From: Oscillatoria sp. CS-180
Lineage (GTDB): Bacteria; Cyanobacteriota; Cyanobacteriia; Phormidesmidales; Phormidesmidaceae
Assembly: GCF_028330965.1 (NCBI RefSeq)
Contig: NZ_JAQMUB010000019.1
Coordinates: 62,001 to 126,000, forward strand
Reading direction: 5' to 3'
DNA: 64,000 bases
A model generated the notes under the pieces. It searched no databases. It was not told the DNA's origin and saw nothing but the letters and a program-made list of their open reading frames with translations. Made by a program: the position numbers and the translations under genes. The stretch's first letter is position 1, and every line of letters begins with the position of its first letter. Below are positions 18,796 to 22,001 of the stretch, piece by piece.

Positions 18796-20811
18796 TTAAC
18801 GGTTCGGCAAATAAGCCATTGGATTAACCGTTCCCTGGTCAGGAAGGTGAATCTCAAAGTGGAGGTGAGGACCTGTGCTGTATCCAGTACTCCCCATCTC
18901 AGCAATTTGCTGACCTTGACGGACCTGTTGCCCTGCACTGACTAACAACTGACTGTTGTGAGCGTAGCGAGTCATGCTGCCATCTGGGTGGCGCACATCA
19001 ATCAGCTTGCCGTAGCCACCAGAGTTCCATCCTGAGCGCTCTACAACACCTGGACCAGCGGCGTAAATGGGTGTACCCACTGGACCAGCAATATCAACAC
19101 CACGGTGCATCCGTCCCCAGCGGTAGCCGTAACCAGAAGTTAAAACGCCGTGAGCAGGCCAAATATACCCGTCAAAACGATCTGGAGCTTCAGGCAGGTA
19201 CTCATCCTGGGGGGGGAGCACAGGCATATCAGGAGAAACCACCCGACCTTCAGGAGTCTCGATGATGGGGGCATACACCTCTGAACCCAAAGGTGCTGCT
19301 GCCAGTAGCTCCTCAGCGAGAAGCGGATCTACATCCAGTTCAACACTGGAATCTAAATCTGCTGCATCGGAGAACTGAGGATTGATAATATCTTCCTCAG
19401 GAAAAGCCGAACCATCAGCCTCTAATTGAGCGTTCTCTACCGCAGCCAACTCTTCTGGCTCAAAAACCTCAACTAGTTGACTCGAATATCGCTCAGCCGT
19501 GTCAGACGTTACGTCCAACTGAGAACGAGTAGCTTCCGCAACATCGGATAAGAGACCTTCTACAAACGGATCGGTCACCACAGCCTCGGTCGTCTCCGCA
19601 GGTTCTGAAAAAGACGCCTCATTTAAACCCGTAGACTTCTCAAAGGCGACCAATTCATCCACTGGGAAATCGTCAACGGTCTCGCTCTCAGTGGTCGGGA
19701 CGATCGCAGTAGTAGCAGATTCTTGCTCACTTTCACGAATTGCTTCGAACGCAACATCCGCTGGGATAACAAGTTCATCGCCCGAGACAATAAAGTTCGG
19801 ATTGGATAGCTGGTTGACCTGCTGTAGATTATCAGGCTCCACACCATAGCTGCGAGCGATAGACCAGAGGGTTTCACCCGAGCTTACGTGGTGAACTAGC
19901 TCACGCTCCTCAGTAGCCGCAGGAACGATCGCGAGGGACGGAACCTCCGCAGCTTTGCCATCTGACTCGTTTGAAAGCCGCGCCTCAAGTGAAAACGTGG
20001 ATTCAGTAGAGGTCGATGCAGTTGGCATCTCTAGCGATGGAACAGCTTCCGCTTTCGCCTCTGGCTCAAAGTCAGTGGTTGGTGAGTCTGGCACAGGTAC
20101 GCTGACTTCAGATAACTGGATCCCCTCAGCACTGGAAGCAGCAGTCTCAACAGACCGATTAGCTTCAAGTTCAGGCTGTTGAGCTTCCAAAAATTCTGAC
20201 AAAGTAGAAGGAGAAGCTTTAGCTTCTTCAACAGACTCACTCAACTGCGGGACATCAACAACGCTTTCCTGAGGGTTAGCAAGGGCAACAATCGTCTCTT
20301 CAGACTGAGCCACATCTTCTTCAACCTCCACCGTTGGAGAAGAATCAGCTACAGGAGATAGCTGCGTCGTGGCCGGCGTAGACCGTGCGATCGCAGGAAC
20401 CTTCAACACCTGTCCGGCTTGAATAACTTGGTCCTCGCCGATACCATTAGCCGACTTGATGTCGCTAACGGTTACGCCATGATGCTTTGCAATGTCCCAA
20501 ATTGTTTCACCGACAGAAACAGTATGGTAAGTCGCTGATGCGCCTTCAGGCCTAGCTGACCCAAAAGAGGGTAATGGGCTGGGGGCATTAGTGACAGATG
20601 GCAAAGCGGCTAAGTGCGTTGAGTCAACAGCCTCAGCACTTGATATAAAAGAACCAGCAGCACCGATAGAGAGTGCAAGGCTGAGTACCGTAAACGAGGT
20701 ACGAACCTTTCGACCCGTTTCGATACTTCCTTGAGTGCTTTGAAAAGGAACCAAAGGACTCAACTGACTCTGCGTGTCCGGGATAAACTCCTGAGTAAAA
20801 ACAGGGCTCAA
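18796..20811 (-). CDS. LysM-LysM-M23 peptidoglycan endopeptidase (NlpD-like)
   Basis: About 671 residues. A short cytoplasmic N-terminus is followed by one membrane helix or uncleaved signal (SFTVLSLALSIGAAGSF, about residues 38-60), then two LysM domains (HTVSVGETIWDIAKHHGVTV and HHVSSGETLWSIARSYGVEP) separated by about 170 residues of acidic Ser/Glu-rich linker, a second long acidic linker, and a C-terminal M23 domain. M23 zinc ligands are visible in HRGVDIAGP and GPHLHFEIHLP. It cuts or activates cutting of peptidoglycan cross-links. The frame opens at an ATG at 20862, but the TTG at 20811 has AGGAGG eight bases upstream, so I prefer it; the extra 17 codons would overlap a structured leader. 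Confidence 0.85.
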   Translation of the reverse strand: MSPVFTQEFIPDTQSQLSPLVPFQSTQGSIETGRKVRTSFTVLSLALSIGAAGSFISSAEAVDSTHLAALPSVTNAPSPLPSFGSARPEGASATYHTVSVGETIWDIAKHHGVTVSDIKSANGIGEDQVIQAGQVLKVPAIARSTPATTQLSPVADSSPTVEVEEDVAQSEETIVALANPQESVVDVPQLSESVEEAKASPSTLSEFLEAQQPELEANRSVETAASSAEGIQLSEVSVPVPDSPTTDFEPEAKAEAVPSLEMPTASTSTESTFSLEARLSNESDGKAAEVPSLAIVPAATEERELVHHVSSGETLWSIARSYGVEPDNLQQVNQLSNPNFIVSGDELVIPADVAFEAIRESEQESATTAIVPTTESETVDDFPVDELVAFEKSTGLNEASFSEPAETTEAVVTDPFVEGLLSDVAEATRSQLDVTSDTAERYSSQLVEVFEPEELAAVENAQLEADGSAFPEEDIINPQFSDAADLDSSVELDVDPLLAEELLAAAPLGSEVYAPIIETPEGRVVSPDMPVLPPQDEYLPEAPDRFDGYIWPAHGVLTSGYGYRWGRMHRGVDIAGPVGTPIYAAGPGVVERSGWNSGGYGKLIDVRHPDGSMTRYAHNSQLLVSAGQQVRQGQQIAEMGSTGYSTGPHLHFEIHLPDQGTVNPMAYLPNR

Positions 20812-21545
20812 AGGATAATCCTCCTCATAACCAGAGCTCGACAGCTTCTTGGGGCATCCCACCGTTGGGAAAACTCAGCTGAACTGAGTTTGCTCCAGAA
20901 GCTAAGGCCATGTCCACAATCCTCGTGGGAGCAAATTAGCTTCGAGAGCTAAAGATACACCGCCTGTCAGATTTAAGCAAGTTTACATTTGCCGAACAAA
21001 TCAGCAAGAAAACCTAGATCACTCATACTTAAATCTTGCTCCTTTTGATGCGTAAAAACCCTGAAATGTCTTCATAGGAGCGATTTTGTCTGCCCCCTTA
21101 CTCTGATTGTCAAAGACTGAGAACCTTTATCAGGAAAATTTGCCTAAAAGACCTGATAATGTTTGCAGGCATTGCAAAGCATGTAGTCGAAAGCCTTTCC
21201 CAAAGGGACTTTCATGAAATGCATACTTGAGCCGAAGTGATACCTAAAGCCCCTATTGATGTTGGGACAGTTAGTAAAGCAACCCATATAGGACCAACCC
21301 ATTTCGCAAATATATTTGAGCAATAGATGATAGAAAATTCTTATTTCTCGACCTACGGATTTGTATCCCAGCGTACTAAGCTCTGACTCCGTTTGTCGTT
21401 CCAGCCTTCACGAGAAAGGAATCGACCAATCTCCGTAAAATCACTTGAATTAAGAATGTAATTTCGATAGCTTTCGAGTGATGCACTACTGCACAACTCA
21501 CTGGTTAAGTGACTCTTATATCAAAGAAGCACTGACAGACTATAT
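20812..21545 (-). promoter_or_regulatory. Long leader of the LysM-M23 gene with competing hairpins
   Basis: On the minus strand, GAAGCTAA (20943-20936) and TTTGCTCC (20935-20928) are followed 22 bases later by their perfect complements TTAGCTTC (20905-20898) and GGAGCAAA (20896-20889), interleaved A-B-A'-B'. Directly after comes AAACTCAG/CTGAGTTT (20891-20871) followed by TTTTCCC, a terminator-like hairpin that overlaps B'. This is attenuator or riboswitch-like; I do not recognise a known consensus. The remaining 600 bases upstream hold no gene. Confidence 0.5.
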
Positions 21546-22001
21546 CTATAGATAAGTCTGTCGTAGACTTTCAAAAAGTCCAATGGCTACGCTCGATGAC
21601 AGGTTCAGACTACGAACACTGGGCTGAGCCATGGGAATACGAACAGTGACATCACAGGCTGCAAGCATTTCTTGCGTCAATCCAGCTGTCTCCTTCCCAA
21701 AAATTAACCAGTCGTCATGATGGTAAACAATGTCTACATAACTCTTTGTTCCTGAAGTGCTGAACCCAATCAAAGCGGTACCTGTCTGACGCGCGGTTTT
21801 CAGGAACAGCTGCCACGAATCATGCAAATGTAAATCGACATAGGGCCAATAGTCGAGTCCAGCCCGCTTGAGGTAGCGATCGCTCAACTCAAACCCCAGA
21901 GGCTGCACAAGGTGCAGTTCAGTTTTAGTCGCTGCGCAGGTTCGAGCAATATTGCCTGTATTGGGTGGGATCTCCGGATGAACTAGAACAACTTTAGGCA
22001 T
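21546..22001 (-). CDS. trmL: tRNA (cytidine/uridine-34 2'-O)-methyltransferase TrmL
   Basis: A 151-residue SpoU/TrmD-fold (SPOUT) methyltransferase that 2'-O-methylates the wobble base of leucine tRNAs. The start VVLVHPEIPPNTGNIARTCA, the middle GFELSDRYLKRAGLDYW, and the knot motifs DDWLIFGKETAGL and VRIPMAQPSVRSLNLSSSVA are classic TrmL. It is short, without an extra RNA-binding domain, as expected. The frame begins at a TTG at 22043, but the ATG at 22001 starts the family domain exactly. A stand-alone gene between two spacers. Confidence 0.93.
   Translation of the reverse strand: MPKVVLVHPEIPPNTGNIARTCAATKTELHLVQPLGFELSDRYLKRAGLDYWPYVDLHLHDSWQLFLKTARQTGTALIGFSTSGTKSYVDIVYHHDDWLIFGKETAGLTQEMLAACDVTVRIPMAQPSVRSLNLSSSVAIGLFESLRQTYL

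Follow-up and report, generated by a model that had tools for sequence, protein, structure and literature searches.

The mRNA of a LysM-M23 wall hydrolase in a Halomicronema-type cyanobacterium appears to carry a structured 5′ leader of about 135 nt that acts after transcription has started, a reading to which we assign a probability of about 0.5. The leader would set the translation of the hydrolase or the stability of its mRNA through the way the start region is presented, and not through transcription termination; we infer that translation or RNA stability is the likeliest level of its action. The structural part of this reading centers on P2, a predicted long-range helix that is kept within the genus and whose 3′ strand lies just upstream of the Shine-Dalgarno (SD) sequence.

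The analysis covers a window of 64 kb (the whole stretch of DNA analysed) from a genome of 6.5 Mb in 102 contigs. The hydrolase gene occupies positions 18796..20811 on the minus strand, and a gap of ~730 bases separates it from a SpoU-type methylase gene ending at 21546. Pfam matches in the frame scanned from 20862 (PF01551 at 6e-35; PF01476 in two stretches), together with the alignment of orthologues, give a product with two LysM domains and a peptidase M23 domain. The probable start codon is the TTG at 20811-20809, where the orthologues' alignment begins behind an AGGAGG. The aligned starts place this SD at 20820..20825 (minus strand), and its GGAGG is invariant across 37/37 aligned starts, all of which had been chosen with an SD pattern. 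An alternative GTG start at 20862, taken from the ORF list, is less likely; in L004-L006, a one-base frame shift 5′ of the TTG was read by eye.

Upstream of the gene, the minus strand contains a -35-like TTGCTT (20975..20980), which aligns with the TTGTCT of an orthologous Nodularia promoter, and, across a spacer of 17, a -10-like TATCTT (20952..20957), recognized by comparison with the same promoter. A simple promoter scan reported no consensus promoter here; in the conserved promoter-like block, 17 bases separate a -35-like TTGYYT from a -10-like hexamer. Differential RNA-seq of Nodularia spumigena CCY9414 gave 35,393 reads for a start at 3660323 assigned to a 'Peptidase M23B precursor', which stands in row 30 among the 50 strongest gene starts of Table 2 in PMC3610870; its strand is printed there as '--' and was taken as minus. 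We infer that Nodularia spumigena is the relative carrying the matching leader. In the orthologous leader, base 3660323 sits 5 positions past the TAATCT of the conserved block, the leader runs for 116 nt to a TTG, and the gene has LysM and the beginning of M23. Projection from this base puts the transcription start in the window at 20946 (minus strand), uncertain by a few bases. An earlier note had placed four complementary segments, between 20943 and 20889, in the leader of the LysM-M23 gene, and the projected start, lying upstream of 20889, supports this location: they very probably lie within its transcribed leader. Since the start projected from the relative falls near 20946, transcription very probably does not begin downstream of 20889.

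The leader is common to all six genus genomes compared, and its outline is common to the family. In particular, the N-terminal protein match occurs in 57/57 family genomes, and the promoter-like block together with an SD was found by pattern in 56/57 leaders (L073 is the exception, and L084 is counted even though the SD paired there is not the gene's). Across loci L100-L127, an SD with a TTGA start is present in 21/28 and lacking in L117, L120-L124 and L126. Further, positions 20980-21007 hold a second promoter-like pair (TTGCTG, 16 bases, TAAACT) that abuts the conserved -35 and also appears at the same place in L039-L087, as TTGATT or similar in many; the two adjoining pairs suggest tandem promoters. 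Four loci bearing the names Xenococcus, Hyella and Xenococcaceae (L121, L124, L126 and L131) show by eye a promoter-like ACTTGYYTAAA..CAGGTTA and no SD start block.

The four segments are A (GAAGCTAA, 20943-20936), B (TTTGCTCC, 20935-20928), A′ (TTAGCTTC, 20905-20898) and B′ (GGAGCAAA, 20896-20889), all on the minus strand. A′ is the exact complement of A and B′ that of B, which confirms two perfect, interleaved 8-bp pairs. They had been described as having almost no linkers; this holds for A-B (0 nt) and A′-B′ (1 nt), but B and A′ are 22 nt apart. A third hairpin (AAACTCAG / CTGAGTTT, 20891-20884 / 20878-20871, minus strand) is a variable branch, with 72.3% of cells paired in the six genus leaders, which is the shuffle level. 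The TTTT reported after this hairpin is present at 20873-20870, but three of its bases belong to the stem and one T remains. An interleaved set of this kind (8 bp perfect, within 75 nt) occurs a single time in the window; because 9/60 Markov simulations of 64 kb hold at least one, one set per 64 kb is unremarkable in itself. The notable point is its position in a leader, and simulations of the leader 20811-20960 alone produced such a set in 4/5000 cases. Moreover, the 98-nt stretch 20863-20960, which takes in promoter bases and omits the 3′ strand of P2, folds at -35.2 kcal/mol (z = -4.0 versus shuffles).

The earlier note takes A:A′ and B:B′ for two alternative helices in an attenuator or a riboswitch. 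This reading is improbable in light of the related leaders, where neither pair shows compensatory change. B:B′ is intact in 0/5 congeners, each of which keeps 3 to 6 of its 8 standard pairs; across the six genus leaders it is paired in 70.2% of cells with zero double changes, a level no higher than the 73.9% obtained after a slide of one column. The case for A:A′ draws on its exact complementarity and on its pairing in 95.8% of cells, far above the 20.8 to 54.2% of slid versions; however, the six leaders contain no double change in it, its covariation score equals that of every shuffle, and by eye the segment is absent from L035 and L038, leaders of two sister genera. Nor did the search for a termination signal favor such a switch: a terminator scan found 0 intrinsic terminators in 20700-21200, and by eye no T run follows the third hairpin in L002-L006. 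Transcription attenuation is therefore unlikely, and a terminator was rejected as a candidate. The leader resembles attenuators with mutually exclusive hairpins in that competing hairpins can be drawn in it; it differs from them in having no terminator before the gene, and in that its B:B′ is not intact, and its A:A′ not compensated, in congeners.

Known riboswitch families were considered as well. At gathering score, Rfam 15 gave no match to the leader in the window (two tRNAs lie elsewhere); at E<=10, the leader had two matches only, both far under their cut-offs; 17 related loci gave tRNAs only, and 20 further leaders gave nothing at E<=1. The earlier note had named the c-di-AMP riboswitch (ydaO-yuaA, RF00379), which in some bacteria stands upstream of a wall peptidase gene, as the leader does here; PMC9960051 gives a Corynebacterium case. 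Unlike those leaders, the present one is not matched by the RF00379 covariance model, which found nothing in the window or the whole genome and, in the control, matched 2/14 named genomes (B. subtilis and C. glutamicum). Overall, the transcribed LysM-M23 leader and the existence of competing folds survive from the earlier interpretation, whereas the A/B switch pairs, the terminator and an Rfam family do not.

The comparison gives A′ a strand further downstream as its partner in place of A, a case in which exact complementarity within a single genome can mislead about the partner. In the RNAalifold consensus of the genus, A′ is extended via the GGAGC of B′ and pairs with 20855-20842. The 5′ strand of the resulting P2 helix (20892..20904, minus strand) comprises 7/8 bases of A′ and this GGAGC; the 3′ strand (20842..20855, minus strand) comprises GCCCCA, a bulged A at 20849, and GAAGCTG. 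P2 has 13 positions, with 12 standard pairs in the window. On the alignment from which P2 was itself picked (six genus leaders, about four independent lines), 93.6% of its cells are paired compared to 86.6% in shuffles (0/500 reach this), double changes affect 4 pairs (18/500 shuffles reach this) and 6 cells (1/500), and the covariation score is 0.349 as opposed to 0.215 in shuffles (sd 0.037; 0/500) and at most 0.118 in slid versions; its further pair types show no excess over shuffles (372/500). The six-leader alignment as a whole folds with a z of -2.86 versus column shuffles (2/300 as good) and contains 7 double-change pairs versus 2.0 in shuffles (0/300), and single-leader folding barely beats shuffles (z from -0.6 to -1.5).

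The two sister-genus leaders, L035 and L038, took no part in finding P2. All six lower P2 pairs are possible in both, with a G-C to C-G exchange in L038, once the arms are positioned by hand, since MAFFT alone failed to align them. The predicted probabilities of the lower P2 pairs are 0.98, 0.99, 0.74, 0.32, 0.64 and 0.31 in the six genus leaders, 0.30 in L035 and 0.99 in L038. P2 covaries in the genus; beyond the promoter and the start block, no sequence core common to the clades was found.

Folding energies place A:A′ in competition with P2. The window's leader reaches -48.3 kcal/mol when P2 is combined with a possible second helix (P1) and -44.7 kcal/mol when A:A′ is forced, with a predicted probability of 0.01 for A:A′; in the minimum-energy fold, A is mostly paired beside the SD. 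In L004, the A:A′ fold is the more stable one (-39.6 versus -34.4 kcal/mol), and it trails by 1.8 kcal/mol in L005 and 0.2 kcal/mol in L006, so that A:A′ is energetically competitive in these three leaders, a point in favor of the switch reading. The idea of alternative pairings is retained in part: A:A′ versus P2 is possible inside the genus, but a conserved, mutually exclusive A:A′/B:B′ was not found. Lying upstream, the A:A′ hairpin could form earlier on the nascent RNA and may act as an intermediate in folding or, in particular lineages, as an alternative to P2. In the window fold, the strands of P1 lie at 20937..20946 and 20824..20833 (minus strand), the latter overlapping the first two SD bases; within the genus, one broken cell is all the variation of P1. 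Because P1 is missing from both consensus folds and has a probability of 0.0 in L004, L035 and L038, it carries no weight in the argument.

A short frame at 20911-20825 ends in VELWL*, its stop overlapping the SD. An explanation by which a leader peptide ending in ..VExWL* couples translation to the hydrolase gene through this overlap is very improbable. Its final codons and stop are conserved in 8/8 leaders from three genera; however, L002 and L003 have no in-frame ATG, GTG or TTG, the frame of L035 has one codon and the other starts differ, and a stop within four codons of the frame occurs in 23/66 leaders (the 66 include the 8).

Between genera, the promoter and the translation-start block are the shared parts of the leader, and its middle is lineage-specific. 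The start block was modeled from sequence only, using 37 chosen starts that include the window's own; the resulting model (R1) matches the window at 20792..20849 on the minus strand (G000:C57:82792-82849, E = 2.4e-10), and the block is roughly 60 nt long. Searches run with stricter filters found R1 in 59/291 genomes across the phylum, with one match each and with some source genomes of the model included in the set, and in 116/118 Nodularia-family genomes, of which 114 have a single match and 2 have two. One of the two double-match genomes is 38% contaminated; the other, G396, has low contamination and its matches lie on different contigs. Thirty of the 59 phylum loci were read, and in each of them a TTG opens a reading frame that is still open at the edge of the locus after at least 504 aa, with a LysM pattern in 29/30; the M23 part lies beyond these 30 loci and was seen only in protein-anchored loci and in L235. 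The consensus fold of the start block contains four pairs near the SD with zero double changes, and a helix common to all clades was rejected, as these four uncompensated pairs are all that the alignment yields. Base pairing between the start block and the 5′ region was likewise rejected as a general rule, its mean z being near chance in four groups (0.21, 0.16, 0.02 and -0.38).

Leaders of other clades give a mixed picture of folding. Nostocaceae, Oscillatoriales-type and filamentous serve here as working labels, drawn in part from record titles. Among the Nostocaceae, 74/75 leaders were parsed and 72 were unique; an initial alifold run on the full 72 returned no structure. After 10 outliers were dropped, two disjoint halves of 31 each (62/72 leaders) both yielded the helix UGAUCUUGAU:AUCGAGAUCA (z = -3.05 and -4.09), which, like P2 in the window, sits immediately before the start block; covariation of this helix was rejected, its 91.9% of cells paired being not beyond shuffles. 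Versus column shuffles, a folding signal was obtained for a mixed, mostly Oscillatoriales-type set (z = -3.52, 12 leaders) and for g13 (-2.76, 4 leaders), and none for g12 (-0.05, 13 leaders) or g2 (-0.81, 7 leaders), the g12, g2 and g13 sets extending about 45 bases past the SD. Double-change pairs exceeded shuffles in 0/6 of these sets (the two Nostocaceae halves, mixed, g13, g12 and g2).

In a related calculation, pairing of the segment just 5′ of the block was enriched in the genus and its sisters (mean z = -1.76; 6 leaders used out of 8) and in the 72 Nostocaceae leaders (-1.62). It was not enriched in 35 more members of the family (-0.09) or 27 additional relatives (+0.18), two sets from which leaders shorter than 98 nt were excluded. 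The predicted exposure of the SD, compared with that under shuffled upstream sequence, was 0.19 versus 0.19, 0.25 versus 0.21, 0.32 versus 0.28 and 0.40 versus 0.34 in the four groups, the Nostocaceae being represented by 24/72 leaders, all given the same downstream stretch. In none of the four groups does exposure fall below the shuffled level, and occlusion of the SD by the leader beyond chance was therefore rejected.

These results bear on the main rival to a regulatory leader, namely an ordinary long leader in which a strong promoter and the start region are conserved, the middle is weakly constrained and P2 has no regulatory role. Such a leader is quite possible, if at less than even odds. 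It would account for a conservation between genera that is limited to the promoter and the start block, for the missing folding signal in g12 and g2, and for an SD exposure at chance; it does not account for the compensatory changes in P2 or for the folding of the six-leader alignment beyond shuffles. The regulatory leader of the LysM-M23 mRNA, as the preferred reading, can also be stated more broadly: a leader RNA present once per genome in filamentous cyanobacteria would control the wall hydrolase post-transcriptionally, keeping the plan of a helix that ends immediately before a conserved start block as the sequences turn over between lineages. In this broad form, we consider the proposal doubtful.

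The leader may be likened, by description and not by sequence, to the lrtA type of cyanobacterial 5′ leader, which also stands before one gene and for which action after transcription is described in PMC4956104. Further, 104 candidate structured RNAs are presented in PMC2864571. Within the open-licence literature, titles and abstract openings yielded no title on a LysM-M23 leader. If the leader regulates, it would offer a handle on the dosage of a wall-cutting enzyme in filamentous cyanobacteria.

Separately, the Nostocaceae leaders L154-L234 contain TGTGATC..GATC repeats downstream of the mapped start, which, we presume, resemble CRP-type sites. One of these repeats forms an arm of the helix predicted for the Nostocaceae.
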